Both the position numbers and the translations under genes were made by a program. Of a DNA stretch of 64,000 nucleotides, positions 9,220 to 35,319 are shown one piece after another (position 1 is the first letter of the stretch; each line of letters starts with the position of its first letter). Source of the DNA: Bacillota bacterium (GTDB taxonomy: Bacteria; Bacillota; Clostridia; Ch29); the NCBI GenBank assembly GCA_013540605.1, contig JABVCK010000009.1, positions 226,341 through 290,340 on the forward strand, read 5' to 3'. The notes beneath the pieces were generated by a model. That model did no database searches, had not been told where the DNA came from, and was given only the letters and a program-made list of their open reading frames with translations.

Positions 9220-9273
9220 TAATGGAGGTAGGAACTGTTGCCGGATACTATTATTAGGAAAGGCAGGTACGCC

Positions 9274-11199: not shown

Positions 11200-11216
11200 A
11201 ATGTTTTGTGACCTTT

Positions 11217-11240
11217 CGCTGTTGATTTTTATCGACAGCG
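11217..11240 (+). terminator. Terminator-like hairpin after the activator gene
   Basis: CGCTGTTGAT / ATCGACAGCG, ten pairs including one G-T, with a TTTT loop. The T run after it is interrupted (CTATTGTTTT), so it is weak. Confidence 0.6.
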
Positions 11241-11396
11241 CTATTGTTTTAATCATGTTAAAATAATTAACGGAAATTAAGATAGTTATTCAAAATAGAA
11301 ACATATCCCTGTCTAAAACTTGAATGGAACGGTTAAAGAGTGTCTCAGGCTTATGCATGATAGGGTTTTAAGGGAATTCCACAAACGGGTCAAAAG

Positions 11397-11412
11397 TGGT
11401 ATGGATTTTGCT
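11397..11412 (+). promoter_or_regulatory. Sigma-54 (-24/-12) promoter of the symporter-kor operon
   Basis: TGGTATGGATTTTGCT, with GG and GC separated by exactly 10 bp, 80 bp upstream of the symporter start. It is the second such site flanking the activator gene. Confidence 0.75.
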
Positions 11413-11492
11413 TGTATATAATGAATTGTAGAGGGGCTGAATAAAAAGCCTACACATAAACATAAACACAGCAGAAGGAGGAAGTAAAGAAT

Positions 11493-12908: not shown

Positions 12909-12922
12909 AAAGAGGTAATCAG

Positions 12923-13447: not shown

Positions 13448-13492
13448 ATCTCAGTTGCAGAAAGAATATCCCTGATGAAAGGAGTATGAGAC

Positions 13493-13696
13493 ATGAATAG
13501 GGTAATTGTCAACACCGACTGGTGTAAAAGGTGCGGCATTTGCGTAGAGTTCTGCCCTGTAGAGGTCTTTACACAGGAGGTAGACGGGACGCCTGTGCCT
13601 GAGCACCTTGAAAAATGCACGGGGTGCAGGATGTGTGTCCTGAGGTGCCCGGACTTCGCAGTGGAAGTGGAGGTGGATAAGGATGGAACAAAATAG
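13493..13696 (+). CDS. korD: 2-oxoacid:ferredoxin oxidoreductase, delta (ferredoxin-like) subunit
   Basis: 67 residues with two complete 4Fe-4S motifs: Cys 11, 14, 17, 21 and Cys 42, 45, 48, 52, each ending in CP. It passes electrons from the TPP active site of the beta subunit to ferredoxin. AAAGGAGTATGAG precedes the ATG. It overlaps korA by 14 bp, with the order delta-alpha-beta-gamma typical of Kor/Vor complexes. Confidence 0.9.
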   Translation: MNRVIVNTDWCKRCGICVEFCPVEVFTQEVDGTPVPEHLEKCTGCRMCVLRCPDFAVEVEVDKDGTK

Positions 13697-14825: not shown

Positions 14826-15643
14826 GCAATATGAAATTTGACGATTACTTGGTTAAGAACAAATTTCCACTATTCTGGTGCGGAGGATGCGGAAATGGAA
14901 ACGTACTGGGAGCAATAGTCAGGGCCTTTGAGGAACTGCAGCTTGACAGGAAGAATACGGTGGTAGTTACCGGGATCGGATGCTGGGGAAAAGCCGATGA
15001 TTACATCAATACAAACGCATTTCACGGGACTCATGGGAGGGCGCTGGCCTTTGCTACCGGTATAAAGCTTGCCAACCCTGAGCTTAAGGTGCTGGTCCTC
15101 ATGGGGGACGGCGACGGAGCAACGATAGGAGGAAATCACCTCATCCACGCAGCAAGGAGAAATGTAGACCTTACCGCAATAGTCGTTAATAATCTCAACT
15201 ATGGCATGACAGGAGGCCAGTATTCGGGTACGACACCGGAGGCAAGCTACACCAGCACCTCGCCCTATGGACACATTGAGCAGGGTTTTGACCTCTGCAA
15301 GCTGGTTGAAGGAGCGGGCGCGCCCTATGTGGCGCGGGGCAGCGTGTACAATATCGTTCAACTGCAAAAGTTGATCGTTGAAGCGCTGAACAAGAAAGGG
15401 TTTTCCTTTGTTGAAGCGATTGCTCCCTGCCCAACGCATTTCGGCCGCCGCAACGGCATGAAAACCGGACCCAAAATGCTGAATTGGATTAAGGAGAACT
15501 CGGTCAATATTAAACAGGCTGAAAAACTATCTCCCGAGGAGAGGGAGAAGAAGTTTGTGCTTGGAAAGTTTGTAGACAGGGACAAGGAAGACTACAGCAC
15601 AAAGTACGAGAAAATATTCGCAATAGCTGAGAATGCTGAATAG
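14822..15643 (+). CDS. korB: 2-oxoacid:ferredoxin oxidoreductase, beta (TPP-binding) subunit
   Basis: 273 residues. Cysteines in FWCGGCGNGNVLGA coordinate the proximal cluster or sit near TPP, and TPP binding is marked by GDGDGATIGGNHLIHAARRNVDLTAIVVNNLNYGMTGGQYS, the GDG...N-x-YGMTGGQ pattern of the family. The ATGA start overlaps the korA stop. It holds the active-site thiamine diphosphate of the KorDABC complex. Confidence 0.92.
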   Translation: MSNMKFDDYLVKNKFPLFWCGGCGNGNVLGAIVRAFEELQLDRKNTVVVTGIGCWGKADDYINTNAFHGTHGRALAFATGIKLANPELKVLVLMGDGDGATIGGNHLIHAARRNVDLTAIVVNNLNYGMTGGQYSGTTPEASYTSTSPYGHIEQGFDLCKLVEGAGAPYVARGSVYNIVQLQKLIVEALNKKGFSFVEAIAPCPTHFGRRNGMKTGPKMLNWIKENSVNIKQAEKLSPEEREKKFVLGKFVDRDKEDYSTKYEKIFAIAENAE

Positions 15644-15657
15644 AGGGGGGACAGTAC

Positions 15658-16200
15658 ATGAAGGAGAGATGGGAAATAATCCTGAGCGGGGTTGGAGGAC
15701 AGGGCCTCATTGTAAGCGGGTCAATACTCGGTGAAGCTGCTACGATTTATGAAAACAAGAACGCCACTTTGACCTCCTCCTATGGTACTGAAACCAGGGG
15801 AACGTTTACAAAATCAGACATTATAATAAGCGATGGGGACATATATTACCCTGAGGTTATGAAGGAAGATGCCGTATTGGCCCTTGCCCAGGTAGCCTAT
15901 AACAGGTATGTGGGAAGTTTGGATGAAGAAGCGGTGCTCATTTACGACAGCGGTCTTGTTGAGGATGTGAAGGCGTCCAGGGCAAAACAGCTCGGGTTCC
16001 CGATAACCGATATTGCCAGGGAACTGGGGAATCCGGCCGTTGCAAACATCGTTGCCCTTGGGATAATTGTAAAGCTGACCGGTGTCGTTTCACCGGAAGC
16101 TGTGGTCAAAGCCATAGAAGGCAGGTTCATTAAAAAACCTAGGGTTGTTGAACTGAATACAAAGGCGTTCAACCGCGGGATGGAATTGGTTAAAGACTAG
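15658..16200 (+). CDS. korC: 2-oxoacid:ferredoxin oxidoreductase, gamma subunit
   Basis: 180 residues of the POR gamma-type fold: ILSGVGGQGLIVSGSILGEAA at the N-terminus, SSYGTETRGTFTKSDIIISD, and NIVALGIIVKLTGVVSPEAVVKAIEGRF near the end. Fourteen bp after korB with AGAGGGGGGAC as the ribosome binding site. It completes the four-subunit complex. Confidence 0.92.
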   Translation: MKERWEIILSGVGGQGLIVSGSILGEAATIYENKNATLTSSYGTETRGTFTKSDIIISDGDIYYPEVMKEDAVLALAQVAYNRYVGSLDEEAVLIYDSGLVEDVKASRAKQLGFPITDIARELGNPAVANIVALGIIVKLTGVVSPEAVVKAIEGRFIKKPRVVELNTKAFNRGMELVKD

Positions 16201-16216
16201 TTGGAGGTGTTAATGT

Positions 16217-17398
16217 ATGAATATCAGGTTTGCCGATAGGATGGAAGAGGTAAAACCATCAGCAATCCGTGAGATCTCCAGGCTGATACAGCAGACACCG
16301 GGCACAATCTCGTTCGCAGGGGGGTGGCCGGCGCCCGAGCTCTTCCCCACCGAGGAGATGAAGGCTGTATGCGTAAATATAATCGACGAAGATGGAAGAG
16401 AGGCGCTTCAGTATACATCCACCGAAGGATACCTGCCGTTAAGGGAATTCATAGCAAAAAGGATGGGAGCATCGGGAGTGGATATTGACCCGAAGGACAT
16501 CCTTATAACCAACGGCTCCCAGCAGGGGTTGGATTTTTCGGGAAAGCTTTTCGTTAATGAGGGTGATGTGGTAATTTGCGAAAGCCCGAGCTATGTGGGG
16601 GCACTAAGCGCGTTCAGGGCTTATCTGCCAAGGTTTGTCGAGGTCCCAATGGATGAGGACGGTATGATTATTGAGGAGCTGGAGAAGGCACTGGCGCAGA
16701 ATCCGGGTGCGAAGTTCATATACACCATACCGGATTTCCAGAACCCCACAGGCAGGACGCTTAGCCTTGAAAGGCGGAAGAGGCTGGTAGAGCTTGCCGT
16801 TAAATACGGTGTACCAGTAATAGAAGACAACCCGTACGGGGAACTCAGGTTCGAAGGGGAGCGACTCCCGGCAGTCAAGCATTTTGATACCGAGGGTATC
16901 GTCATTTACTTGGGGACAACTTCAAAAACCTTCTGTCCCGGTTTAAGGGTGGGATGGGTTGCAGCAAGCTCGGACATAATCAGGAAATATGTGCTGATAA
17001 AACAGGGTGCCGACCTGCAGGCCAATACCCTTTCCCAGAGACAGATAGCCAAATTCGCCGAGATGTATGACTACGACGCCCATGTCAGGGGTATTATCGA
17101 TGTCTACAGGAAACGAAGGGACTTGATGATGGATATGATAAGAAAGGAGTTCCCGCTGAACATCAGCTATACCTACCCGAAGGGCGGCCTGTTTACATGG
17201 GTTGACCTTCCCGAGGGCATGGATGCCGCGGAGGTGCTGAAAAAAGCCCTTGAGCAGGGTGTCGCCTTTGTACCCGGCGAAGCATTCTATCCGAATGGCG
17301 GCAATGCAAACCACTTCAGGCTGAACTACTGCACCTCTTCGGATGAAAAAATTGTTGAGGGCATTAAGAGGCTGGGAAGGGTGTTGAAGGGACTGTAA
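16217..17398 (+). CDS. PLP-dependent aminotransferase (class I fold, LysN/2-aminoadipate type)
   Basis: 393 residues of fold-type I. Marks: ISFAGGWPAPELFPTEEM, YTSTEGYLPLREFIAKRM, DILITNGSQQGLDF, YTIPDFQNPTGRTLS, the aspartate-containing VIEDNPYGELRF, and the PLP lysine in LGTTSKTFCPGLRVGW. It resembles LysN and the catalytic half of MocR proteins, which are broad aminotransferases for aromatic, branched-chain and aminoadipate substrates. As last gene of the kor operon it probably makes the 2-oxoacid that KorDABC oxidises. TTGGAGGTG precedes the start. Confidence 0.9.
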   Translation: MNIRFADRMEEVKPSAIREISRLIQQTPGTISFAGGWPAPELFPTEEMKAVCVNIIDEDGREALQYTSTEGYLPLREFIAKRMGASGVDIDPKDILITNGSQQGLDFSGKLFVNEGDVVICESPSYVGALSAFRAYLPRFVEVPMDEDGMIIEELEKALAQNPGAKFIYTIPDFQNPTGRTLSLERRKRLVELAVKYGVPVIEDNPYGELRFEGERLPAVKHFDTEGIVIYLGTTSKTFCPGLRVGWVAASSDIIRKYVLIKQGADLQANTLSQRQIAKFAEMYDYDAHVRGIIDVYRKRRDLMMDMIRKEFPLNISYTYPKGGLFTWVDLPEGMDAAEVLKKALEQGVAFVPGEAFYPNGGNANHFRLNYCTSSDEKIVEGIKRLGRVLKGL

Positions 17399-17484: not shown

Positions 17485-19464
17485 TCACGTTAAAGGCACC
17501 AATTCGTCGGTGACTCGTTTGAGAATAATGCCTTTTTGATCATTGGACTTTAAGTGCTCTACAAGATTCTCCATGAGCAATTCCGAGCGGTTCTTATGGT
17601 CTCCATAGTCATCCAAGATTTTATCGGAAAGTCCCCTTATTTCTTTTTTTGATACCGGCATTACGCAGTATTCCTTTATGGATTTGGGGAAAAATGAACC
17701 GTCCATAGCCTCCAGGTATTCATCCAGCGTATAGCTGCCGTCCGCGTTTTTGGTAAAGGTGATTGCCGCCGGAACAATACCGCCGCTGACCTCGGAGAGG
17801 GTTTTGCCGTAAAGCCTGTATCTCATATTGAAAACAGTTACAAAGACTTTAAGTTTATTCCCTTCCTCATAGCTGCCGAATATTGTAGGCGCAACAACGG
17901 TAAATCCGTCATTGGGCCGAGAGTATTGCTTAACCGCCGCATCGTAAACAAGCTGTTCTATGGGGTCTGAAACGTTCGCCTTAAAATCCGGCAGCTTTAT
18001 TTCCTTCTGCTCATCTTTTGATGTTCGCTCAGCATCAAAGGACATGCCGTTTAGCCGGTCAATAAGGTTTTTAAGAGTACCGGCGCTGCCCGCATAGGAG
18101 CGGACATCCTCACCTATCAGTCTCTCAGTCATTTCTCTTGTGTATGTAAAAGTATACGATGCGTCATCATACTTGCCGGTGTTGTCCGAGATTTTGCAGT
18201 TTATGATGTCAACATTATCAATTAGACTAAACAGCAGTATGGAATTCCGGTAGAAAGCATCCCCGCTTATGACTCCCTGCACAGTAACATCGGAAGCGTC
18301 AGTCATAACCAAATTGATTGTTATTTCATAGGGCTGATTGGCCGTATGAAGCTCTACCGTACCGCGTACAATGCCTGCCGGCAGCGGCAGGGCATCGATG
18401 AGCGCGACGACCTTGCTGTTATTGCCCACATAGGGAGTTTTATTGGCAATTAGAACCTCAGCATCGTATTCCGGGTAGGTAATTGGCGCAGAAACATCCT
18501 CATTTTTCGGATTTGCCGTAAACGATACAATCAGGACAGCGGTTATAACAATTGCAGCCGCAACAACCCAAAATTCAGGCTTTTTATAGGCCAGGATATT
18601 TTTTATCCTTGATTTAATATTGCTCTCTCCAAAGGCAAGGGGACTGCCCATCAGCAAACCGCTTCTTTTAACCGAAAGTGAAAGCAGAGAATTCGAGTAG
18701 CTGCCTTTAATATCGTTGCCCAGTTTTTTAAGGACGCTTTCGTCGCAGGACATCTCCATATCCTTGCTCATCAATGCAAACGACAACCACATTAAAGGAT
18801 TGAACCAATGGAAAATCAGCGCTAAAAACGCAAAGGGTTTCACAAGATAGTCCAGCCTTTTTATATGGGTATGCTCATGCGCCAGGATATAGGGAAGCTC
18901 GCTCCCGCCTATACCGACCGGAAGGATTATCTTTGGCCTGAGAAGGCCGCATACAAAGGGTGTGGCAATCCTGTCGGTTTCAAAAATATTGTCCCTTACA
19001 AGAGTTGCGGTTTTTACAGTTTTCATCACCTTTAGATATGAAACGATGCTATATATAAGCAGTAAAACTACGCCGGCAATCCATACGCTTCCGGCAAATC
19101 CCATTGCGATCTGCATGGGATTTGCACTGGCTGTAGGCGCCGCCGACGGAAGCGATGAATTAACGGCATTGCTTATACTACCAATTCCCACATCAACCGC
19201 AGGGTCCTGCATGAAGCCGATGTTGTAGGGAACATACTCCATTGCTCCTGAGCTTAATCGAGGATTATGCTGAAGGAAATTCAAAAAGCTAAAGGCGGAG
19301 TTGAAGCTAAAGGGGCAAACAAGCCTTATAAATACCGGCAGCCACAACACATAGGAGAAAATTTTGGGCGCTTTTATCAAGAGCATTCTTGCTGCAATTG
19401 CTGCAAGAGCCACATAGCTCGCGGTAATGCTCATATTAAGTACGGCAGTAAATAAGTCTGTCAT
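17485..19464 (-). CDS. BlaR1/MecR1-type M56 membrane peptidase and sensor
   Basis: 659 residues. Membrane helices lie at about 10-30, 36-52, 120-143 and 205-225. The zinc peptidase motif HEHTH is at residues 196-200, with a downstream EMSCDES segment that supplies the third ligand region. A further helix (VVAAAIVITAVLIVSF, about 352-367) precedes an extracellular C-terminal half that has no penicillin-binding transpeptidase motif; it looks like DUF4825-type sensor material instead. Family members cleave or trigger loss of the partner repressor. It overlaps the BlaI-like gene by 4 bp. The inducer is probably not a beta-lactam, since the beta-lactam-binding domain is absent. Confidence 0.88.
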   Translation of the reverse strand: MTDLFTAVLNMSITASYVALAAIAARMLLIKAPKIFSYVLWLPVFIRLVCPFSFNSAFSFLNFLQHNPRLSSGAMEYVPYNIGFMQDPAVDVGIGSISNAVNSSLPSAAPTASANPMQIAMGFAGSVWIAGVVLLLIYSIVSYLKVMKTVKTATLVRDNIFETDRIATPFVCGLLRPKIILPVGIGGSELPYILAHEHTHIKRLDYLVKPFAFLALIFHWFNPLMWLSFALMSKDMEMSCDESVLKKLGNDIKGSYSNSLLSLSVKRSGLLMGSPLAFGESNIKSRIKNILAYKKPEFWVVAAAIVITAVLIVSFTANPKNEDVSAPITYPEYDAEVLIANKTPYVGNNSKVVALIDALPLPAGIVRGTVELHTANQPYEITINLVMTDASDVTVQGVISGDAFYRNSILLFSLIDNVDIINCKISDNTGKYDDASYTFTYTREMTERLIGEDVRSYAGSAGTLKNLIDRLNGMSFDAERTSKDEQKEIKLPDFKANVSDPIEQLVYDAAVKQYSRPNDGFTVVAPTIFGSYEEGNKLKVFVTVFNMRYRLYGKTLSEVSGGIVPAAITFTKNADGSYTLDEYLEAMDGSFFPKSIKEYCVMPVSKKEIRGLSDKILDDYGDHKNRSELLMENLVEHLKSNDQKGIILKRVTDELVPLT

Positions 19465-19820
19465 TTTGTGGCCTCCTCTATGATACGTTTAAGTTCCTCG
19501 GCTTCCCTTTCGGTAATCTTCCTTTCACCCAAAAATGCCGTTAAAAACTGCGGCAGGGAGCCGTCGAAGACCTTTTCTATTACCGTCTGGCTTTCGTATT
19601 TTTGAGCATCCTCCTTTTTAACAATCGCTGAGACCGTTGCATCTTCATTTTTAAGTATTCCGCGTTCGCAAAGCTTTCTTAAGACCGTGTATGTCGTGGA
19701 CTTTTTCCAGCCAAGCTTGTCACGGCTAAGCTTTACGAGTTCAGTTGAATTGATGGGTTCATTTTCCCAGACTAAACTGGCAAATTTATATTCGGCGTCG
19801 AATAATTTGTACTGTTCCAC
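19461..19820 (-). CDS. BlaI/MecI/CopY-family repressor
   Basis: 119 residues from the GTG at 19820, chosen because TGGAGGT stands 8 bp upstream and family members start with an almost identical (M)EQYKLFDAEYKFA segment; the open frame extends 34 codons further but those codons cover the promoter. The winged helix reads INSTELVKLSRDKLGWKKSTTYTVLRKLCERGIL, and the C-terminal dimer part follows (ESQTVIEKVFDGSLPQFLTAFL). Members repress their own operon and are removed on signal from the BlaR1-like partner, which is encoded immediately downstream. Confidence 0.9.
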   Translation of the reverse strand: MEQYKLFDAEYKFASLVWENEPINSTELVKLSRDKLGWKKSTTYTVLRKLCERGILKNEDATVSAIVKKEDAQKYESQTVIEKVFDGSLPQFLTAFLGERKITEREAEELKRIIEEATK

Positions 19821-19832
19821 AGCGGCCAACCT

Positions 19833-19895
19833 CCATAAGTTTATTGCAGTAGACCTTATATGCCTAAGTTTATCGGAATAGACCTGATTTGTCAA
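19833..19895 (-). promoter_or_regulatory. Promoter and putative operators of the blaI-blaR1-like operon
   Basis: On the minus strand TTGACA (19890-19895) and TAAACT (19867-19872) are 17 bp apart. Two direct copies of a 14-bp motif (CMTAAGTTTATYGS on the plus strand) lie at 19833-19846 and 19863-19876, spaced 30 bp start to start; one overlaps the -10. That placement suits repressor binding, although the motif is not the classical TACA/TGTA dyad. Confidence 0.6.
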
Positions 19896-19940
19896 TATGG
19901 TTCTTTTTTCTTTTTGGGGCATACTAATTTCATCAAATTA

Positions 19941-25065: not shown

Positions 25066-25070
25066 CGAGG

Positions 25071-25115
25071 CCATTAAATATACCCTCCGGTGGATACGGA
25101 GGGTATATTTAATGG
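25071..25115. terminator. 19-bp perfect hairpin between two plus-strand genes
   Basis: A perfect stem of 19 pairs with a 7-nt loop (GTGGATA), from CCATTAAATATACC through CCTCCG and back. AT-rich outer and GC-rich inner pairs suit a bidirectional terminator, although there is no separate T run. Confidence 0.7.
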
Positions 25116-25154
25116 GCTATGTATGCTAGAATATAGGAAATGGAGGTGTTCAGG

Positions 25155-26111
25155 TTGGTCAAGTTTGATGATGTAGTATTGGCAAGGAGACGCATCAGGG
25201 ATTACATTTATCTTACACCGCTGGAGCTGTCCCTGAGCTTGAGCAGCGGTAAAACCAAGGTTTTTCTTAAGCTGGAATGCCAGCAAAGGCTGAAGAGCTT
25301 TAAAATCAGGGGGGCCTTGAGCAAGGTAACCATGCTTTCGGAGGAAAAGAAGAGCAGGGGTATTCTTGCTGTGTCCTCGGGAAACCACGGCGCAGCGGTA
25401 AGCTATGCGGCGAATATCTTTGGAGGCATTGAAACTAAGGTTTTCGTTCCCAGGGGAACTCCGGAATCCAAGGTAAAGAAGATAAGCTTCTTCGGGGCAC
25501 AGGTGAACACTGTGGGGGATAGTTATGATGAGACCCACGCTATAGCGATGGAAGTGCTGGAAAGGGAAAAGCAGACCTACATAGACCCGTGCTCCGATGT
25601 GGAGGTTATCGCGGGCCAGGGTACCGCGGCCCTTGAGATACTGGAGCAGCATCCCGATATAGATACAATAGTGGCTCCCATAGGGGGCGGAGGACTGATA
25701 ACCGGCCTGGGCCTGGCCGCAAAAAGCATTAAACCCGGGGTGCAGATAATAGGAGTGCAGACCCGCGCCTGCCCGGCCATGGTTCATGCCCTCCGGGACG
25801 GTGTATGCTATGCCGAGTATGCCTCTGCTCCGTCCATATGCGACGCAGTAATAGGTGGTGTGGGTGAAATACCTTTCAGCATGGCAGGAGAATGCATAGA
25901 TAATATTATAGAAGTGGATGAAAGTACAGTGGCAAGGGCCGTTGCCCAGCTGATGAAGCAGGAAAAGGTGATAGCGGAACCGTCGGGGGCGCTGGGTGTA
26001 GCGGCCTTTATGGAGCAGCCCCAGTTGTTTGAGGGCAAAAATGCTGCCATAGTGATTTCAGGAGGCAACCTGGACGGGAAGCTGATGAGGGAATTAATAA
26101 TGAGGGAATAG
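25155..26111 (+). CDS. Threonine dehydratase-like PLP enzyme (fold II)
   Basis: 318 residues from a TTG at 25155. The ATG at 25140 overlaps the ribosome binding site GGAGGT, so the TTG 7 bp downstream of it is preferred. The PLP lysine is in RLKSFKIRGALSKV, followed by SSGNHGAAVSYAA and the phosphate-binding VAPIGGGGLITGL. The length and lack of an ACT domain match catabolic threonine/serine dehydratases, serine racemase and EutB-type proteins of ectoine utilisation. First gene of a three-gene operon with an ornithine-cyclodeaminase-like and an aminotransferase gene; the substrate is unknown. Confidence 0.88.
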   Translation: MVKFDDVVLARRRIRDYIYLTPLELSLSLSSGKTKVFLKLECQQRLKSFKIRGALSKVTMLSEEKKSRGILAVSSGNHGAAVSYAANIFGGIETKVFVPRGTPESKVKKISFFGAQVNTVGDSYDETHAIAMEVLEREKQTYIDPCSDVEVIAGQGTAALEILEQHPDIDTIVAPIGGGGLITGLGLAAKSIKPGVQIIGVQTRACPAMVHALRDGVCYAEYASAPSICDAVIGGVGEIPFSMAGECIDNIIEVDESTVARAVAQLMKQEKVIAEPSGALGVAAFMEQPQLFEGKNAAIVISGGNLDGKLMRELIMRE

Positions 26112-26129
26112 GAACAGGGAGGCGTATAT

Positions 26130-27185
26130 ATGGCAAAACTGAGGGTTTTAAACCAGGAGGCAATCGAAGGGGCAATCGACATGAGAAGCGTTATTAAGGC
26201 TGTGGAGGATGCGTATGTTCAGAAGTCTTCAGGGGAGGCCGTCGTATTTCCCCTGATCTTCTATGAGTTCGAGCCGGGAAAGGCGGATATGGATATAAAA
26301 TCCGGGTACCTGAAGGGGGCGGACATATTCGGCCTGAAGCTTGTGTCCTGGTTCGGAGAGAACACCGGGAAAGGCCTTCCGGCCCTTGTAGGCACGGTAA
26401 TGGTGCTGGACAGCAGGACAGGGATGCCGCTGGGCATCCTGAACGGGGAATACATAACATGCATGCGCACAGGCGCAGCAGGGGGTATAGGAGCTAAGTA
26501 CCTGGCGAGGAAGGATTCAAGGAACCTGCTCATGGTTGGTTCCGGGCACCAGGCTCCCTTCCAGATAGCAGCAACTCTTGAGATAATGGAAGGAATTGAG
26601 AGGGTTATGGTATACAACCCGAATTCCCTGGATAGGGCAAAGGGGTTTTGCCGGAAGGTTCCGCAAATTCTAAGGAATAAATTCCTGGATAAATATTCCG
26701 ATGACAGGGAGCATTATGAACTGATCCGGGAAAGATACGAAGTTGAGTTTGAAGCGGTAGAGGATATTGAGAAGGCTGCAGGGGAAGCGGATATAATAAT
26801 TACCGCCACACCGTCCCGAAAACCACTGATTATGAAAGAGTGGATTAAGGGAGGTACTCACATAAGCTGTATAGGAGCGGATATGGAAGGAAAGCAGGAG
26901 CTGGATGAGGGCCTTTTCCAAAATGCCAGAGTGTTTGCGGATGACATCACCCAGGCCGTTAATGTAGGGGAGTGCGAAGTTCCTATAAAGAAAGGAATAA
27001 TATCGGAGGAAGACATAGCAGGAGAAATCGGCCGCCTGATAATGGGCAGCATACCCGGGAGGCTTAGCGACGATGATATTACAATATACGATAGTACAGG
27101 TATAGCACTGCAGGATTTGATCACAGCCAATCTGGTCATAGGCAAGGCCGAAGCCATGGGCCTGGGCGTGGTGGTTGACCTGTAA
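26130..27185 (+). CDS. Ornithine cyclodeaminase / mu-crystallin family protein
   Basis: 351 residues. VFPLIFYEF and DIKSGYLKGADIFGLKLVSWF belong to the substrate domain, with an NAD-binding Rossmann segment LLMVGSGHQAPFQIAATLEI and ADIIITATPSRKPLI. Family members deaminate ornithine to proline or reduce cyclic imines and 2-oxo acids with amines; EutC of ectoine utilisation is a relative. An insertion at about residues 178-210 (VPQILRNKFLDKYSDDREHYELIRERYEVEF region) is longer than in many members. It starts 18 bp after the dehydratase-like gene. Confidence 0.88.
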   Translation: MAKLRVLNQEAIEGAIDMRSVIKAVEDAYVQKSSGEAVVFPLIFYEFEPGKADMDIKSGYLKGADIFGLKLVSWFGENTGKGLPALVGTVMVLDSRTGMPLGILNGEYITCMRTGAAGGIGAKYLARKDSRNLLMVGSGHQAPFQIAATLEIMEGIERVMVYNPNSLDRAKGFCRKVPQILRNKFLDKYSDDREHYELIRERYEVEFEAVEDIEKAAGEADIIITATPSRKPLIMKEWIKGGTHISCIGADMEGKQELDEGLFQNARVFADDITQAVNVGECEVPIKKGIISEEDIAGEIGRLIMGSIPGRLSDDDITIYDSTGIALQDLITANLVIGKAEAMGLGVVVDL

Positions 27186-27218
27186 ATGATAAGAAATGTA
27201 CCAAGAGGAGGCGACGAC

Positions 27219-28337
27219 ATGAACGTGAAACCTTTTTTGGTTGAAGAATGGATGAACAAATATGAAATGGATGCTGTTTACAATATCGCTGAGACCTGTG
27301 TGGATTCCCTAACCCTGGGAGAACTGCTTTCCCTCTCGGAGGATCCCATGGATTTTCTTGGAGGGCTGCAGGATATGAAACTAACGTACGGGCATATAGA
27401 GGGGTCTCCGGAGCTTCGCACCCTGATTGCCGGACTGTACAAAGGCCTGGACAGTGGAAACGTGATAGTAACCCATGGAGGTATTGGAGCCAACTTCCTT
27501 TTGCATTATTCAATAGTAGATCCGGGGGACAGGGTGATCTGCGTACATCCCACCTACCAGCAGCTGTATTCCGTACCGGAAGGCTTTGGGGCTGAGGTGA
27601 AGCTTCTGCCGCTAAGGCCGGAGAACGGCTTCCTCCCCGATATTGATGAGTTGAAGGGATTGATAAATGAGACGACAAAGCTTATCGTAATAAACAACCC
27701 GAATAACCCGACGGGGGCTCTGATGGAAGAAGAGCACCTGAAACAGGTGGCAGATATTGCCCGTTCCTGCGGTGCTTACGTTCACTGCGATGAAGTGTAC
27801 AGGGGACTTTATCATGAGATAAACACAGCGGTCCCATCAATAGCTGATGTTTACGAAAAGGGGATCAGCACCAGCAGCATGTCCAAAGCATTCTCGCTGG
27901 CCGGACTGAGACTTGGATGGATTGCCGGACCGGAAGATATTATAGAGGAGTGCTTCAAGCACAGGGATTATACCACCATAAGCTGTGGCATGCTGGACGA
28001 TATTCTGGCTGTCCATGCGCTGAAGAACTATCACAGGATAATGGAAAGGAATCTCAAGATTGTGCGGGGGAACGCACGCATACTTGATGAATGGGTCCGG
28101 AGGGAAGAACAGATAAGCTATATCAAACCGAAGGCGGGTACCACGGCCTTCCTGAAATATGACCTGCCGGTATCCTCCGAGGAGTTTTGCCTGGGCCTTT
28201 TCAAAAAAGACGGTACTTTTCTGGTCCCCGGCAAATGCTTTGATATGGAAGGCTGGCTGCGGATAGGGTTCGCATGCAGCCCCGATGTGCTGGAACGGGG
28301 CTTGAAGAATATATCCGAATACATCCGAACCCTTTGA
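27219..28337 (+). CDS. Class I/II aminotransferase (VioD/capreomycidine-synthase-like)
   Basis: 372 residues from the ATG at 27219 with AAGAGGAGGCGACGAC upstream. Fold-type I marks: LTYGHIEGSPELRTLIAGLY, VVTHGGIGANFL-like IVTHGGIGANFLLHY, INNPNNPTGALM, VHCDEVYRGLY and the PLP lysine in STSSMSKAFSLAGLRLGW. The overall pattern recalls the capreomycidine synthase/VioD branch of aminotransferases, which act on arginine-derived compounds; this is a resemblance, not a proven function. Last gene of the three-gene operon. Confidence 0.85.
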   Translation: MNVKPFLVEEWMNKYEMDAVYNIAETCVDSLTLGELLSLSEDPMDFLGGLQDMKLTYGHIEGSPELRTLIAGLYKGLDSGNVIVTHGGIGANFLLHYSIVDPGDRVICVHPTYQQLYSVPEGFGAEVKLLPLRPENGFLPDIDELKGLINETTKLIVINNPNNPTGALMEEEHLKQVADIARSCGAYVHCDEVYRGLYHEINTAVPSIADVYEKGISTSSMSKAFSLAGLRLGWIAGPEDIIEECFKHRDYTTISCGMLDDILAVHALKNYHRIMERNLKIVRGNARILDEWVRREEQISYIKPKAGTTAFLKYDLPVSSEEFCLGLFKKDGTFLVPGKCFDMEGWLRIGFACSPDVLERGLKNISEYIRTL

Positions 28338-28959: not shown

Positions 28960-29835
28960 TTATCCCTGCTTGCCTGTTTTCTGTATCCTTTCCAGACTGA
29001 TTCCAAGCAGGTTTGACGATATTATAACCAATATAAGGGCAATTCCGGGCAGTATGCTTTCCCACCAGTAGAGCGTTAGGAACCGGTACCCTGCCGCCAC
29101 CAGCTGTCCCAGATCAACCGGGGACAGGTCCGAAAAAAAGTTTACCCCCAGGAAACTGAGGCTTGATGAAATGAGGAGAACCTCGCTGAACACGTCTGTA
29201 CTTAGGGCGAGTACCGTTGAAAAGAGGTTAGGCACTATATGCCTGACTGCTATGTATATATCTTCGCCGCCAATACTGATTGCCGACAGTACAAATTCAT
29301 ACTCCTTCAGTTTCAAAACCTCGCCCCTGACTACCCTGGCAACCGGAACCCAGTTTGTTATGCTGAGCACTAAAACGAAGGTGACTATGCCCGGAGAGAG
29401 GACCATAAGAAGAAACATCAGCATAGCAAGGTTCGAGAACGGCTGCACAATACTGCAAAAACTCATGACGAGGCTGTCCGCCCTGCTGCCGAAATATCCC
29501 GCCACCAGGCCCATAAGAGTTCCAACTATTATTATTACTATCATCGCAAGGGTAGCGATGATAAGCGTCGGTCTTAGCCCCCACAGGGTAAGGGCCAGCA
29601 GATCCAGGCCGACATGGTTCGTACCCATAGGATGCTTTAAAGAAGGAGGGGCCGCCGTCACCGTATAACCGGATTCGACGTTCCTCGCAGCTATATTACC
29701 CACCGCCAGTACGGTGGACCTCGCAGCCCTGATTTCATCATAGCTCAACGGATATATCACCGGGGCCAGAAGTCCGCCCAGCACCATGAGCCCAAGAACC
29801 AGCAGAGAGACAATGAACAGCCATCTGTTTTTCAC
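28960..29835 (-). CDS. DppC-like ABC transporter permease, solitary
   Basis: 291 residues of the DppC/OppC branch: N-terminal helix, an extracytoplasmic stretch ending in HPMGTNHVGLDLLALTLWG (the typical HPxGTD-x-x-GRD-like segment), five further helices, and the EAA loop EYEFVLSAISIGGEDIYIAVRHIVPNL that contacts an ATPase. The GTG start directly follows the TAG of the 862-residue gene with no gap, so translation is probably coupled. No DppB-type partner, binding protein or ATPase is nearby, which is unusual for this transporter class. It may use subunits encoded elsewhere or work with its fused-adaptor neighbour. Confidence 0.85.
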   Translation of the reverse strand: MKNRWLFIVSLLVLGLMVLGGLLAPVIYPLSYDEIRAARSTVLAVGNIAARNVESGYTVTAAPPSLKHPMGTNHVGLDLLALTLWGLRPTLIIATLAMIVIIIVGTLMGLVAGYFGSRADSLVMSFCSIVQPFSNLAMLMFLLMVLSPGIVTFVLVLSITNWVPVARVVRGEVLKLKEYEFVLSAISIGGEDIYIAVRHIVPNLFSTVLALSTDVFSEVLLISSSLSFLGVNFFSDLSPVDLGQLVAAGYRFLTLYWWESILPGIALILVIISSNLLGISLERIQKTGKQG

Positions 29836-32424
29836 CTAGAATCCCCCTCTGAAAGTGCTTAAGAATGATGCCATAAGGGCACAAACCGTGTCCAGATAAA
29901 GCCATCCCGCAAACAGGCAGCTAAACCTGTCAAGGCGTCCATTTCTCTCCGGCAAGGAAAACTGCACAATGGTGGCGACAGCAAGAAGGGACAGGGTCAC
30001 CGCATTGATGGCAAGAAGCGCCTGGTCGCTTACATTAGCCATCTCGCTGAATATGTCCTTGAACATTAATGCGTTAAAATATTTGACCGGAAGCACGGAT
30101 ATCAGAAAGGCCATGTAATACATCCTGTTTTTTCTTTTTTTGAACACTACAAGGTAGAGGAACAGGCAGAGCAGTAAAAGAGGCAGCAGGTTATACGGTA
30201 TAAAGAACAGTACGGCGCTCGCCATGCTGGTGAACAGGTTGAGAATATGGCCCAATACGCTTTTGCTGAAGTCGGCAATACGGTTTTCCGCTGCAAGCCT
30301 TTGGACAAGGGTAGGGTTGGTTGACATGAAAAGCAGATTGTATCTGTCTCCGTCAAGGTCTACCCAGGATACGATCCTTTTTTGGTCCGGTGAAATGATT
30401 ATACCGGGGAACTTCTGGGTATTTATTTTACCTACTATTGTCTTTGGCAGGGTCATGGAGGCACCGCTGCCGTCAATCTGCTGGTAATAGACGTCGCTGT
30501 TCAGCCTTTTTGAGGTGCGCTCCTGGTCTATCCAGACCGCATGGATGTTATTTGCTCCGTCAACCGCTGTGCTGAGGGCCCCCCTGAAGTTCTCATCCGG
30601 GGTTGTCAGGATTTCCTTTTCCCCGATCATATTACCCGCATAGTCGATCCTTTGCCTCGATATCTGGTAGAACTTATCAATCGGGTTATTGATTTCGGTC
30701 CAGAAAACGTACAAGGCCGAAGGAAGGAACTCAACGGAAAAGTTGTTTCTATAGGGAGATGGTATATAGTACATGAAAACCTCTTTTTTGGGCACAGTAA
30801 GCCTGCCCGCCTCATCAAGCGCAAGAAGATTGAAGTATGCATAGTCAGACTTCTTCTCCACCCAGGCGATAGTATATCCGTTGGAATTTTTTCCGCAGAA
30901 TACATCAAGGATACTGGGGGTAAGGTCAATAAACCCAAGGCTTACGCTTTCGTCAACCAGCACCGTCCCCGTATCAACTGCGAGCGCTATATCATTGCCC
31001 TGGATGCTGTAAATATAGAAGCCAAAATCCCTGGCAGTCTTTCGTATAACCGACAGAAAATTTTCCCCATCCTCAGAGGTGAAAACCGAAGGGTTTACGA
31101 GGTCAAATTCTTCAGATTGTATTTGCCGGGGCTGTGAGAACTGCATATTGTTGTCGATTATTGTGTATTCGATGATCCGCTGTGCCTTTTCCTCAGCTTC
31201 CCAGCATACAAAATAGGCTCCTTCCCTTGTTTTTAGGATTCTTGGATTGGACTTAATCCCCTGCCCACCGCTGAGCTTGGTTTTTCCAATTAATTCACCG
31301 GTCAGTGCGCTGTTCGCCGCAAGGAAGACCTCCGGAGGCGATTCACCGTTTCTATCGGTATAAACTGTCCATATCTGGTCTCCCGTCAGCCCGTATACGT
31401 ATGCCATATCCCTGTCGGGCAGAATGGAAGTGCTTGCGACATCTACTTCATGGCTCCAACGGTCCGGCATTATTTTCGCTTCAACCGGGAACCCAGGCAT
31501 GAACATGCGGTTTCTGTCAATAACCTTTACTGTGACCTCAACAAGGGCATTTGAACTAAGCCCCCTTTCATCAAGCTTAACCATAGGGGAAATGGCATCA
31601 ACCACGCCCCTGTAAGTTTCGTTCTTGGCAGCATCGGTGGTAATCTCAACCTCCTGGCCTATATCAACCCGGGCTATATCTTCAGCCTTGATGTTCAGTT
31701 TGATTTGAAGGTCGGAAAGGTCGGAGACGGCAAATGCCGGTTCCAATGGGTCTGTAAAGGTGCCGTTTTTTACATTTACCCGGGTTACTGTGCCGCCCGC
31801 GGGGCTTCTAATTATAGGGCTGTTCCGGCTAACCTTTTCCTCGGCTTCCCGGGCTCCCAGTTCCGCGAGCTTTATCCGGTTTTCCATGTTTTTGATTTCT
31901 ATGTATGTATATTTCAAATCATCCCTGGTGTTCTCAAGGGAAACGGATGCTTTTTTGAGTTCTGCTTCAGACAGCTCAAGGTCCCTGTCGGAAATTGCGC
32001 CCTGCCCGTACAGTGCCACCGTGTCCCCATATTCCTTTTCCGCCAATTGCAGGTCCAGTTCCGCCTGGGCTATTTCCCTCTCCTTTTCGGGTATGGTTTC
32101 CCTGAGTTTTTCCAGGTCCAGTTCCGCTTGCCTGAGGCTTACCTGCGCCTTCTCAAGTTCAATTGCAAAATCCCCTGATTCCACCAGTGCCAGGGGTTGA
32201 TCCTTCTGAACCCGGTCGCCCTCCCTTACGTTAACGCTTATCACCTTAACCGGGTTTTCCGTATACACTTCGACACTGTTTGCCTCTTCCAGCACACCTT
32301 CGGCTTCTATGTGCGCATCCTTATCCGATTTCCACATCAGAACGAGTTCCACAACCGATGAAAACACAAGCAGAACAAGCACAGACCATAGGATTGCCAT
32401 AAGGTACCTTTTAAGCTTCAGCAT
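29836..32424 (-). CDS. Membrane-fusion-protein / beta-propeller / membrane-domain fusion
   Basis: 862 residues. Residues 8-30 form a membrane anchor. Residues about 45-325 are an HlyD/MacA-type adaptor: lipoyl half (VREGDRVQKDQPLALVESG), paired coiled coil (about 86-200), second lipoyl half (IIRSPAGGTVTRVNVKNG) and beta-barrel (GQEVEITTDA). This part is clearly paralogous to the MacA-like protein at 46785-48047 (shared IRSP-x-G, AF-VSDLS-L, IGQ-VEITTDA). Residues about 385-700 hold repeats of the form PxIL...G-Y-V-W, suggesting a beta-propeller outside the cell. Residues about 730-856 contain four membrane helices. No ATPase motif is present. GGAGGTCAGCT precedes the ATG. I know of no family with this order; the role is unknown. 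Confidence 0.85.
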   Translation of the reverse strand: MLKLKRYLMAILWSVLVLLVFSSVVELVLMWKSDKDAHIEAEGVLEEANSVEVYTENPVKVISVNVREGDRVQKDQPLALVESGDFAIELEKAQVSLRQAELDLEKLRETIPEKEREIAQAELDLQLAEKEYGDTVALYGQGAISDRDLELSEAELKKASVSLENTRDDLKYTYIEIKNMENRIKLAELGAREAEEKVSRNSPIIRSPAGGTVTRVNVKNGTFTDPLEPAFAVSDLSDLQIKLNIKAEDIARVDIGQEVEITTDAAKNETYRGVVDAISPMVKLDERGLSSNALVEVTVKVIDRNRMFMPGFPVEAKIMPDRWSHEVDVASTSILPDRDMAYVYGLTGDQIWTVYTDRNGESPPEVFLAANSALTGELIGKTKLSGGQGIKSNPRILKTREGAYFVCWEAEEKAQRIIEYTIIDNNMQFSQPRQIQSEEFDLVNPSVFTSEDGENFLSVIRKTARDFGFYIYSIQGNDIALAVDTGTVLVDESVSLGFIDLTPSILDVFCGKNSNGYTIAWVEKKSDYAYFNLLALDEAGRLTVPKKEVFMYYIPSPYRNNFSVEFLPSALYVFWTEINNPIDKFYQISRQRIDYAGNMIGEKEILTTPDENFRGALSTAVDGANNIHAVWIDQERTSKRLNSDVYYQQIDGSGASMTLPKTIVGKINTQKFPGIIISPDQKRIVSWVDLDGDRYNLLFMSTNPTLVQRLAAENRIADFSKSVLGHILNLFTSMASAVLFFIPYNLLPLLLLCLFLYLVVFKKRKNRMYYMAFLISVLPVKYFNALMFKDIFSEMANVSDQALLAINAVTLSLLAVATIVQFSLPERNGRLDRFSCLFAGWLYLDTVCALMASFLSTFRGGF

Positions 32425-32623: not shown

Positions 32624-32701
32624 ATGGTTATTGCAATATAATGTATTATATAATATAAGAGAGGGTATACCCCCAGGCATTAAAAACAGGAGGTGTGGTG
32701 T

Positions 32702-33988
32702 ATGAGGCTTGAACTGGGCAAGATCAGAATCCGGAGCGCAGCATTTGGAAATGAAACATGCATTCGGGAAGGTAAGCTTTGGATTGACAAGGAGGGGTTA
32801 GTGGCGCTCCTGAAGGAAGACCCAAGGGTAAGGGAAGTTGAAGTTGATCTGGCAAAACCAGGGGACAAAACCAGGATAATACCCGTTAAGGATGTTATCC
32901 AGCCAAGGGTGAAAGTAACGGGCAAGGGACAGGGGTTTCCGGGGCTTACAACCCGTATGGAGACTGTGGGTGACGGAAGGACACACGCCCTGGAGAACGT
33001 AGCCGTAGTGACAACGGGCAGAATCGTCGGTTTTCAGGAAGGAATAATCGATATGTGGGGGCCGGGCGCGCAGTATACACCGTTCTCAAAGACAATCAAC
33101 GTGGTGGTCACCATAGAACCGGTGGAGGGATTGAAAGAACACCAGCATGAGGAATGCGTAAGGCTTGCCGGTTTGAAGGCCGGCTCCTATATCGGACAGG
33201 CGGCAAGGGAGATTGAACCGGATGAAATCCAGGTGTTCGAGCTTGGAACGATAACCGGAAACGCCAAGAAGTATCCGCAGCTGCCCAAGGTGGTCTATAT
33301 CGAGATGCTGATTTCCCAGGGACTCCTGCACGATACATATATCTACGGCGTGGATTCAAAGAAAATCCTTCCAACGCTGATACATCCTAATGAAATACTC
33401 GATGGGGCCGTTGTAAGTGGAAACTGTGTGGCAGCCTGCGACAAGATAACCACATTTCAGCACCTGAACAACTCTGTGGTGCTGGACCTATACAAGAGGC
33501 ACGGCAAGGACCTGAATTTCCTCGGAGTAATACTCACCAATGAGAATGTAACGCTTGACGGGAAACTCCGGGCCTGCGGTTATGCCACGAATATTGCAAA
33601 GATGCTGGGAGCCGATGGAGCGATTATTTCTGAGGAAGGATACGGCAACCCCGATACTGACCTTATGATGAACTGCCGTTTGCTGGAGGATGCGGGGATA
33701 AAAACTGTACTGATCACCGATGAATGCGCGGGACGGGATGGGAGTTCCCAATCCCTTGCCGACTGCGTCCAGCAGGCGAAGGCGATTGTAACCACCGGCA
33801 ACGTCAGTGCCCTTGTGGTTCTGCCCCCGGCGGAAAAGATAATTGGAAGGGCGGAGGCCATTGCAAACCTTGCCGGTGGGTATGACGGAAGCCTGGCAGC
33901 GGACGGGCGCATCACGTGCGAGCTTAATGCGATAATAGGCTCCACTTCAGAAATTGGTTACCACAATGTAACTACAAAGTTGTATTGA
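32702..33988 (+). CDS. Glycine/sarcosine/betaine reductase component B, alpha/beta proprotein
   Basis: 428 residues of the GrdE/GrdG/GrdI family. The proprotein is cut to give two subunits with a pyruvoyl group on the new N-terminus; the conserved processing site is seen as VVSGNCVAACDK, with Cys at residue 242, the same position described for GrdE. Component B binds the amine substrate as a Schiff base and hands a carboxymethyl group to selenoprotein A. The ATG at 32702 follows AGGAGGTGTGGTGT; an upstream in-frame GTG overlaps the ribosome binding site. Sequence alone does not say which of glycine, sarcosine or betaine is used, so no gene symbol is given. Confidence 0.9.
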   Translation: MRLELGKIRIRSAAFGNETCIREGKLWIDKEGLVALLKEDPRVREVEVDLAKPGDKTRIIPVKDVIQPRVKVTGKGQGFPGLTTRMETVGDGRTHALENVAVVTTGRIVGFQEGIIDMWGPGAQYTPFSKTINVVVTIEPVEGLKEHQHEECVRLAGLKAGSYIGQAAREIEPDEIQVFELGTITGNAKKYPQLPKVVYIEMLISQGLLHDTYIYGVDSKKILPTLIHPNEILDGAVVSGNCVAACDKITTFQHLNNSVVLDLYKRHGKDLNFLGVILTNENVTLDGKLRACGYATNIAKMLGADGAIISEEGYGNPDTDLMMNCRLLEDAGIKTVLITDECAGRDGSSQSLADCVQQAKAIVTTGNVSALVVLPPAEKIIGRAEAIANLAGGYDGSLAADGRITCELNAIIGSTSEIGYHNVTTKLY

Positions 33989-34005
33989 TGAGGAGGCGAC
34001 ATACT

Positions 34006-35319
34006 ATGACAGAAAAAAAGATAAGGGTAGTGCACTACCTCAACCAGTTTTTCGGCAACATAGGCGGTGAAGATAAAGCCGGGCAGCCTCCGATTTCCAA
34101 GGATGGAGCCGTTGGGCCGGCTATGGGATTGCAGCAGGCGATGGGCGATAAGGGAGAGGTTGTCGGTACTGTAATCTGCGGAGATAACTACTTCAACGAG
34201 AACACCGCAGAAGCAAAAAAACAGATACTGGAGCTGATAAGAAAATACTCTCCGGATGTGGTGGTTGCCGGTCCGGCCTTCAACGCCGGCAGATACGGCA
34301 TGGCCTGCGGCGAGACGGGGAAGGCGGTAGTCCAGGGTCTGGGCATACCGGTTGTTAGCGGTATGTATAATGAGAATCCCGGGGTGGATGCGAGCAAACT
34401 GGCAGTATATATTGTACCCACCGCTGATTCCGCAGCAGATATGAGGAATGCCCTGCCCAAGATGGCTGCCCTGGCCCTGAAGCTTGGCCGGGGGGAAGAC
34501 CTGGGAACTCCTCAGGAGGAGGGGTATATTCCGCAGGGCAGGAGGGTGACCGTCTTTTCGGACAGGATTGGCTCTACCAGAGCGGTGGAAATGCTGATGA
34601 AGCGGTTCAATGGAGAACCCTTTGAAACGGAACTCCCCATGCCGGAGTTTGATAGGGTGGAGCCGGCGCCGCCCGTGAAGGATATGACGAAGGCCAACAT
34701 CGCATTGGTGTGTACCGGAGGAATAATGCCGGCGGGCAACCCGGACAGGATAGAATCCGCAAGCGCTACAAAGTACGGCAGGTATTCGATTGCTGGTTTG
34801 GATGATTTCCTGCCGGAGGATTATGAGACTATTCACGGGGGATATGATCCGGTATACGCAAACCAGGATCCGGACAGAATCCTGCCCCTCGATGTGCTGA
34901 GAGACATGCAAAAGGAAGGGATAATCGGGAAGGTCCACGATTATTTCTATACAACCGTTGGAACCGGAACATCGGTGGCAAATTCGATGAGATTTGGGCA
35001 GGAAATTGGCAAGCAGCTCAAGGAGGAAGGGGTAGACGCTGTCATCCTCACGTCCACCTGAGGCACCTGTACCCGTTGCGGCGCAACGGTTGTGAAGGAA
35101 ATAGAAAGATACGGCATTCCAATAGTTCACCTGTGCACCATCATCCCAATTTCCCAGGCGGTCGGTGCAAACAGGATAGTACCGGGTGTCGCCATACCTT
35201 ACCCGCTGGGCAATCCGGATAAAACACCCGAGGAGGAAAAGGCCATCAGGCGAAAACTGGTTGAGACAGCCATTAAGGCGCTTCAGACTGAGGTAGAAAC
35301 GCAGACGGTATTTGAATAG
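34006..35319 (+). CDS. Selenocysteine-containing reductase component B, gamma subunit (GrdB/F/H)
   Basis: 437 residues when the in-frame TGA at 35059-35061 is read as selenocysteine (residue 352). The frame continues unbroken with the family-typical U-GTC-TRCGATVVKEIERYGIP, giving a U-x2-C-x2-C motif, and ends at 35319. N-terminal VVHYLNQFFGNIGGEDKAG and VVAGPAFNAGRYG are typical of the family. Stopping at the TGA would remove the catalytic residue and the last 85 amino acids. ATG 34006 follows GAGGAGGCGACATACT. It forms an operon with the alpha/beta gene. Selenoprotein A, component C and thioredoxin genes are not in the window. Confidence 0.93.
35059..35061 (+). other. Selenocysteine codon UGA
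   Basis: In-frame TGA within TCCACC-TGA-GGCACC, between the conserved VILTST and GTCTRCGA segments of the component B selenoprotein family. Confidence 0.93.
35073..35089 (+). promoter_or_regulatory. Candidate bacterial SECIS hairpin
   Basis: Seven-pair stem CCGTTGC / GCAACGG with loop GGC, starting 11 nt after the UGA. This is the distance range expected for a bacterial SECIS recognised by SelB. Confidence 0.7.

Follow-up and report, generated by a model that had tools for sequence, protein, structure and literature searches.

Which amino acid is handled by a dehydratase-like enzyme, a reductase of the ornithine cyclodeaminase family and an aminotransferase that are encoded side by side? The question is raised by a 64,000-nucleotide stretch of DNA from a Bacillota bacterium of the class Clostridia (assembly GCA_013540605.1, contig JABVCK010000009.1, positions 226,341 to 290,340), which we refer to as the window and whose numbering is used here. 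The first gene (25155 to 26111) has a TTG start codon and encodes a fold-type-II pyridoxal phosphate (PLP) enzyme of 318 amino acids that resembles dehydratases and racemases, here called DHT. The second gene (26130 to 27185) encodes a 351-amino-acid NAD(P)-dependent reductase of the ornithine-cyclodeaminase/mu-crystallin family, here called OCD, and the third (27219 to 28337) a class-I aminotransferase of 372 amino acids, here called AT, from the PRK07324 family, which contains ArcT. All three open reading frames (ORFs) are located on the plus strand, with spacers of 18 nucleotides between DHT and OCD and 33 nucleotides between OCD and AT, in agreement with an earlier sequence-only reading of the window, which had described three tightly linked genes. 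The identity of the genes, their linkage and its recurrence, their placement in families and the conservation of their general catalytic residues are established. The trio matches no described pathway closely and represents a variant on the theme of a dehydratase paired with an OCD-type imine reductase, here with an ArcT-type aminotransferase; its substrate is probably a basic amino acid.

Recurrence of the Gene Trio

From 218 OCD relatives in named genomes we took the 80 best and searched these loci with the window trio using tblastn, counting AT genes up to 3 kb away and DHT genes up to 6 kb away on the same strand. AT was found in 62 of the 80 loci, DHT in 29 and both in 27. Of the OCD relatives, 38 were 50% or more identical and had 3 kb of sequence on both sides; 36 of these were accompanied by AT, the exceptions being loci L116 and L156, and 21 by DHT. 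The conservation survey that the sequence-only reading had proposed was thus favorable to the trio. With the same flanks and at least 60% identity, the numbers were 13 of 13 for AT and 8 of 13 for DHT. A search for AT at E ≤ 1e-60 was positive in only 41 of the 398 genomes in a sample of the phylum, including the genome studied here, and the linkage to OCD is therefore more frequent than expected by chance.

The gene order varied. DHT-OCD-AT was observed in the window, in Marinisporobacter and in 2 metagenome-assembled genomes (MAGs) labelled Actinobacteria and Atribacterota; OCD-AT-DHT in Acidaminobacter, Tepidibacter and Clostridiaceae M8S5; AT-DHT-OCD in an Aerophobetes MAG; and OCD-AT-YfcC-M20-DHT in several Brevibacillus. 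Furthermore, a PucR-type regulator was present in 30 of the 108 loci analyzed. The trio is a compact operon that recurs in Clostridia, Bacilli and MAGs labelled Actinobacteria, Atribacterota and Aerophobetes. We consider it very likely that DHT-OCD-AT is a conserved operon, and in the window it looks like one three-gene transcription unit.

In 6 of 7 loci on Proteobacterial plasmids, a gene for an OCD protein of another subfamily was located near that for an AT homolog with 54% to 57% identity (not in Ruegeria, and on the other strand in Burkholderia), and the OCD proteins beside AT were only 20% to 24% identical. A gene for an amino-acid-type binding protein was located nearby in 5 of the 7 loci, and 4 had a gene for a hydrolase of the M20 or AstE/AspA type. 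In the Enterobacter roggenkampii plasmid (L212), the OCD-AT pair was accompanied by genes for a lysine/arginine/ornithine-type binding protein and an AstE/AspA-type hydrolase, and an IS5 transposase gene was located between this group and the ast arginine operon.

Some OCD loci carried genes for PhzF, a CuyA-like lyase, or creatininase-like or D-aminoacylase-like proteins instead. In L055, L056, L071, L151, L157, L161, L165 and L174, OCD was followed by a PhzF-family gene, in place of DHT and with an aminotransferase or MocR-type regulator alongside. A CuyA/D-cysteine-desulfhydrase-like gene was located directly upstream of OCD in L141 (573 to 1637) and L143, with gaps of -26 and 0 and without the AT gene. 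It was also noted that a trpB-like gene for the beta chain of tryptophan synthase was divergent from, and close to, DHT-OCD-AT in L053 and L137, and that the trio was followed in 2 distant MAGs (L112 and L113) by a gene whose product has in both cases the distinctive N-terminal sequence MGAAGRDFHNFNVYFR and which is perhaps a further conserved neighbor. Phage records contained only OCD proteins with less than 60% identity (9 records, of which 5 were listed at 24% to 29%).

The sequence-only reading had also noted that DHT and OCD recall EutB and EutC of ectoine breakdown without the third gene being part of that pathway, and the distinction was upheld. The cut-offs for EutB (413 bits) and EutC (472 bits, and 408 bits for PRK08291) were reached neither by DHT (263 and 215 bits) nor by OCD (198 and 232 bits), both proteins belong to separate clades, and AT was missing from nearly all EutD loci. 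EutD was not found in the genome that contains the window (best score 79 bits, cut-off 613). In the family of Cytobacillus citreus it was identified in 29 of 193 genomes, and among 20 stretches examined from 20 of these genomes, 19 contained an EutC-type gene, 18 an EutB-type gene and none AT. The EutC-type proteins were 48% to 50% like S. meliloti EutC and 28% to 33% like the window OCD, and a gene for a protein of 398 to 404 amino acids, with no BLAST match to AT at 1e-8, was located downstream of EutC or EutD in 19 of the 20 stretches. In the phylum sample, EutD was detected in 17 of 398 genomes, of which 16 (not G504) were covered by 17 further stretches together with L185; AT was found in none of these 17, and was thus absent from 37 of the 38 EutD stretches examined. 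The remaining stretch, L185 from genome G618, contained EutD, a TRAP transporter, an M20 gene, a gamma-lyase-like gene and an AT gene with 54% identity, without OCD.

Families, Folds and Conserved Residues

The families proposed in the sequence-only reading were matched, with DHT assigned to PF00291 (PALP), OCD to PF02423 (OCD_Mu_crystall; 239 bits, cut-off 24) and AT to PF00155 (Aminotran_1_2). None of the NCBIfam families listed for DHT, among them threonine ammonia-lyases, EutB and BhcB, was matched above its cut-off. An AlphaFold model of DHT (pLDDT 94.1) gave the best match to TdcB (2gn0; Z-score 48.4, root mean square deviation (rmsd) 1.8, 317 aligned residues), and the match to the S. 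pombe serine racemase (2zpu; Z-score 47.3, rmsd 1.5, 316 aligned residues) differed from that to threonine deaminase by only 1.1 Z. A phylogeny was inferred from 32 of the 33 members of the DHT cluster, the truncated L112 protein being dropped and L029 and L148 representing the same contig. The window-type DHT proteins formed a clade of their own with a support of 1.000, which did not include EutB, BhcB, serine racemase or TdcB.

The motif Ser-Ser-Gly-Asn was present in 21 of 22 window-type DHT rows and in the row for the maize serine racemase. However, the Ser-Ser pair is no marker of racemases, because it was also present in the BhcB and Variovorax rows. In a comparison with serine racemase that took in the metal site, DHT kept the SSGN motif and had the sequence GVQTRAC where the maize row reads AAEPKGA. 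Another 10 DHT proteins of a Bacillales type, from Brevibacillus, Cytobacillus and Shimazuella, carry Ser-Ala-Gly-Asn like TdcB and branch away from the window-type clade, at an exact position that was poorly supported. The sequences suggest that DHT joined the OCD-AT pair at least twice, once from the window-type lineage and once from the Bacillales lineage. Racemization requires a second base, which TdcB-type enzymes are held to lack. With 2 DHT lineages combined with one OCD-AT pair, one of them of this type, the role that they share is more likely to be elimination than racemization.

OCD scored below all listed NCBIfam cut-offs, the best match being the archaeal alanine dehydrogenase TIGR02371 (296 bits, cut-off 409). 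The 25 top structures matched by its AlphaFold model (pLDDT 95.1) had Z-scores of 33.4 to 45.5 and all belonged to the OCD/mu-crystallin family; they included alanine dehydrogenase (1omo; 45.5), pyrroline-2-carboxylate (Pyr2C) reductase (6t3e; 44.9) and iminosuccinate reductase (6rqa; 44.8), with rmsd values of 1.7 to 2.0 over 319 to 322 aligned residues. These 3 activities were tied at Z-scores of 44.6 to 45.5 and were not separated by the structure search. Both models are confident, and the structural matches confirm the folds of DHT and OCD and pick no function. In the phylogeny, the OCD clade grouped with BhcD (FastTree support 0.859, and ultrafast bootstrap support (UFBoot) of 86 in a reduced IQ-TREE analysis), and the two grouped with the OCD proteins of the EutC, Variovorax and PhzF-linked kinds with a UFBoot of 98, leaving alanine dehydrogenase outside. 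OCD is thus weakly placed as a sister to BhcD; since the OCD clade itself had a UFBoot of only 51, BhcD may also nest inside it. OCD was not sister to the Pyr2C reductase 6t3e.

Conserved residues were tabulated for 74 OCD rows, one from the window and 73 from the set of 80 loci (L107, L132, L170, L173, L177 and L180 had no OCD ORF called, and the L159 protein was truncated to less than 300 amino acids). Asp55 was present in all 74 rows; the corresponding residue is Asp in 2 EutC rows, Gly in BhcD and Arg52 in alanine dehydrogenase. Asp55 may face a positive charge of the substrate. K70 and R113 were kept in 74 of 74 rows and D251 in 73, and from the motifs and the numbering we take these to correspond to Lys69, Arg112 and Asp228 of ornithine cyclodeaminase. 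In the latter enzyme, Lys69 and Arg112 bind the alpha-carboxylate and Asp228 the alpha-amine (PMC3497308).

AT passed the cut-off of PRK07324 (534 bits, cut-off 476), as did a protein in only 1 of 14 control genomes, and its best match was 3op7. The sequence-only reading had compared AT to VioD and capreomycidine synthase, and this has to be corrected to ArcT-type, with neither VioD (272 bits, cut-off 391) nor GntC (322 bits, cut-off 415) being reached. In a Companilactobacillus locus (L281), an AT homolog that scored 597 bits with PRK07324 was encoded between arcD and arcC, in the order arcA-arcB-arcD-AT-arcC; arcA, arcB, arcD and arcC each scored above a family cut-off, an argS-like gene, judged by eye, came after the operon, and the AT homolog was named ArcT by its position. 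No arcABC genes were found near the trio, the flanks of which encode C_GCAxxG_C_C, an Opp-type permease, an HlyD-type protein, a PAS-hemerythrin protein and IlvD. ArcT of L. lactis has been put forward as an L-arginine-pyruvate transaminase (PMC5300872).

A residue table for the AT family included 93 of 111 rows, with BLAST scores above 150 bits and lengths above 330. Glu9, which is common to GntC, was present in 91 of the 93 rows. Among the aligned rows, Ser25-Ser26 of GntC was replaced by Thr-Cys in the window AT, and Thr84 and His250 of GntC were not kept. A study on GntC, which acts on hydroxy-arginine, equates its Glu9 with Glu15 of OrfR, a residue tied to the guanidine group (PMC10367076).

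A Putative Catabolic Operon for a Basic Amino Acid

We tentatively favor the reading that the trio breaks down a cationic alpha-amino acid (basic or diamino) as one operon, by elimination (DHT), reduction of a ketimine (OCD) and transamination (AT); the order of the steps, the substrate class and the catabolic direction are what we infer. DHT would use PLP to strip the amino acid of a beta-substituent, which is most likely lost as water, and the resulting enamine would tautomerize to a ketimine. OCD would then reduce the ketimine with NAD(P)H to the saturated L-amino acid. The ArcT-type AT would transfer the amino group of this product to pyruvate or 2-oxoglutarate, and the remaining 2-oxo acid would be oxidized. 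The combination of a dehydratase with an OCD-type imine reductase is the chemistry of BhcB and BhcD, and a bhc cluster was annotated in L217. Other precedents appear in work on trans-3-hydroxyproline dehydratase and Pyr2C reductase (PMC4113996) and on EutB and EutC, as proposed (PMC5924519).

The sequence-only reading had suggested a cyclic or diamino acid, and several separate hints point toward a cationic or diamino acid. A cationic substrate is argued for by AT, because its family includes the AT of the arc operon and the proposed ArcT activity and shares Glu9 with GntC, and by OCD, because the invariant Asp55 stands where alanine dehydrogenase has Arg52 and BhcD, which acts on an anionic substrate, has Gly. 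The binding protein encoded after AT in the Enterobacter plasmid scored 287 bits with TIGR01096 (cut-off 256). A YfcC-type transporter, which we counted in favor of a cationic substrate, was encoded in 9 of the 108 loci; the one that was scanned reached 361 of the 500 bits required for 'putative basic amino acid antiporter YfcC'.

Several observations weigh against this reading. As many as 35 of the 62 AT-linked loci had no DHT on the same strand within 6 kb, and OCD-AT must therefore act without DHT there. We examined the neighbors of 20 of 41 AT places outside the window and found neither OCD nor DHT in any of the 20 stretches, even beside AT proteins with 72% and 68% identity, although several of these stretches end near AT at contig ends. 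The linkage is thus one-sided, OCD being more dependent on AT than the reverse. Homologs that occur independently had been named in the sequence-only reading as a ground for refutation, and this applies to AT, which is often unlinked, and does not apply to OCD and DHT. OCD relatives were also patchy, occurring in 24 of 391 genomes in a sample of the class at E ≤ 1e-30, most with less than 45% identity. Since AT pairs with a very different OCD in Proteobacteria, it does not fix the specificity of OCD, and the alternative neighbors of OCD imply that substrates may differ between clades. Furthermore, the identity between the window AT and the AT of the arc operon is only 41%, the activity of ArcT is a proposal, and the guanidine-side residues of GntC are not kept in AT. 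The residue arguments themselves come from alignments and not from a ligand-bound structure. Finally, the name arcT is given to unlike proteins in different species, as stated in PMC5300872.

An extension of the favored reading, which we consider improbable, is that DHT and OCD form an undescribed reductive branch that consumes NAD(P)H. It would dehydrate a beta-substituted (for example beta-hydroxy) basic amino acid and reduce the ketimine, with the amino acid itself as electron sink, while AT would send the product to oxidation, and the module would be common to amino-acid fermenters and Bacilli.

Alternative Explanations

A doubtful alternative is a pyruvate-coupled oxidative deamination. 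AT would transfer an amino group from a basic amino acid to pyruvate. OCD, as an alanine dehydrogenase, would restore the pyruvate and set free ammonia and NADH, and DHT would be a serine/threonine dehydratase that primes the pool with pyruvate or 2-oxobutyrate. Alanine dehydrogenase is the best NCBIfam match of OCD, below its cut-off, and has the highest structural Z-score, tied with others. The activity proposed for ArcT (PMC5300872) also fits, as does the CuyA-like lyase encoded beside OCD in L141 and L143, of which only the L141 protein was scanned. The reaction of the CuyA family yields pyruvate. However, Asp55 replaces Arg52 in every OCD row, and the group that OCD forms with BhcD and the EutC-type OCD proteins excludes alanine dehydrogenase.

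Equally doubtful is a ketimine loop, in which AT would alpha-transaminate ornithine or lysine, the oxo acid would cyclize to pyrroline- or piperideine-2-carboxylate, and OCD would reduce this cyclic ketimine to L-proline or L-pipecolate, with DHT being a racemase or separate. The frequent OCD-AT pairs without DHT speak in its favor, and two Proteobacterial OCD proteins encoded beside AT matched the reductase of pyrroline- and piperideine-2-carboxylate best, with 125 and 132 bits (cut-off 322 not reached). The window-type DHT proteins share their motif with the maize serine racemase, but the Ser-Ser pair is not confined to racemases. The window OCD reached 201 of the 322 bits set for PRK06141, 6t3e is not its sister in the phylogeny, and the loop leaves DHT without a clear role.

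A variant beta-hydroxyaspartate module, in which DHT would be the dehydratase, OCD the iminosuccinate reductase and AT the aspartate:glyoxylate aminotransferase, is very improbable. Three enzyme classes are linked as in bhcABCD and OCD is placed as sister to BhcD, but the scores were only 211 of 550 bits for BhcB and 247 of 500 bits for BhcD, Asp55 stands where BhcD has Gly, and DHT did not group with BhcB. No BhcC-like aldolase was found in the genome that contains the window (best score 22.9 bits, 25% identity over query positions 59 to 195). The beta-hydroxyaspartate cycle was rejected on the absence of BhcC and on the low BhcB and BhcD scores.

Still less probable is a biosynthetic role, in which AT would be a cyclodehydratase of the VioD/GntC type and the product a cyclic guanidino amino acid or another unusual one. 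AT scored next best with GntC and VioD and shares Glu9 with GntC, but no hydroxylase or peptide synthetase is among the named immediate neighbors of the trio, and the transporters and hydrolases near its relatives suggest catabolism. The unmet VioD and GntC cut-offs and the differences at the Ser pair, Thr84 and His250 led to the rejection of a VioD-type cyclase. An ectoine or hydroxyectoine utilization operon (eutBC-atf), for which an EutB/EutC-type pair and the AT gene in the EutD locus of G618 can be cited, is largely refuted and was rejected on the lack of EutD in the genome that contains the window and of AT in 37 of the 38 EutD stretches examined.

Surroundings of the Trio in the Window

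The TTG start of DHT at 25155 is preceded by GGAGG and fits better than an upstream ATG at 25140, and the most likely start of AT, as judged from its sequence, is the ATG at 27219 behind gaggagg, which gives 372 amino acids. Upstream of the trio is a hemerythrin/PAS gene, and downstream a convergent C_GCAxxG_C_C gene. An inverted repeat (25068 to 25118, not assigned to a strand) with arms of 22 bp, 95% complementary, and a loop of 7 nucleotides is located between the PAS/hemerythrin gene and DHT. With a folding energy of -35.8 kcal/mol (z -8.1), it is a predicted hairpin that may be terminator- or operator-like; it was absent from the output of the terminator scan. The scans for promoters (4 versus 3.9 in shuffled sequences) and terminators (5 versus 3.3) were close to shuffle level.

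The region from 7022 to 16200 encodes a phosphate butyryltransferase, a butyrate kinase, a PrdR-like sigma-54 regulator and the alpha, beta and gamma subunits of a 2-oxoacid:ferredoxin oxidoreductase; these oxoacid-oxidation genes are located 8 to 18 kb upstream of the trio. Also encoded within 7022 to 17398, which can be regarded as a module from oxoacid to acyl phosphate, are an SSS-type symporter and a 393-amino-acid aminotransferase that is nearest to the PdxR and MppQ models. Sarcosine-reductase-like genes are located 4.4 kb from the trio, with minus-strand genes in between. They encode GrdG-like and GrdF-like components B of sarcosine/glycine reductase (32693 to 35319), and the GrdF gene contains an in-frame UGA (35059 to 35061, residue 359) with read-through to the stop codon at 35317 to 35319; the GrdF-like protein is likely to be a selenoprotein. 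The Grd and oxoacid genes are separate units that fit an amino-acid fermenter that could oxidize the product of AT. The suggestion that the trio feeds Stickland fermentation comes from the context of these neighboring genes and is not supported as such. The OCD-AT pair is also present in Brevibacillus, Cytobacillus and Priestia, which are aerobes.

Elsewhere in the window, a gene for a BlaR1-like M56 peptidase with DUF4825 adjoins a penicillinase-repressor-like gene (17485 to 19922), and the region from 28960 to 32424 encodes an HlyD-type protein of 862 amino acids with a long unassigned C-terminal part, followed by an OppC-type permease on the same strand.

Comparison with Known Systems

The proteins of the trio are named by family only and are easily taken for ectoine or ornithine enzymes. 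If the substrate were known, these annotations would be corrected, some of the PRK07324/ArcT aminotransferases would gain a function, and another amino acid that fermenters use might come to light. Among the papers listed from an open-licence PMC library, judged by title and opening of the abstract, none dealt with the trio as such; the nearest published relatives found are the pucR-eutBCD-atf clusters of Bacillales, described in a 2026 paper as putative ectoine clusters with PucR, an amidohydrolase and 'atf' (PMC13188858).

The arginine cyclases VioD, OrfR and GntC share with AT the superfamily, the PLP lysine and, in GntC, Glu9. The ArcT protein of arginine-deiminase operons belongs to the same PRK07324 family, but its identity to AT is 41% and the trio has no arcABC nearby. 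The eutBC genes resemble the trio in the pairing of a dehydratase-like with an OCD-family protein and in the Asp-x-Lys motif common to OCD and EutC, whereas the trio lacks eutD and its DHT and OCD belong to other clades. The bhcABCD cluster likewise links a fold-type-II PLP dehydratase, an OCD-family imine reductase and an aminotransferase, but the trio has no aldolase, its AT belongs to PRK07324 rather than to BhcA, and its OCD has Asp55. Although trans-3-hydroxyproline dehydratase is a member of the proline racemase family and, unlike DHT, is not dependent on PLP, its combination with Pyr2C reductase shares with the trio an OCD-family reductase and the logic of dehydration, tautomerization and reduction.

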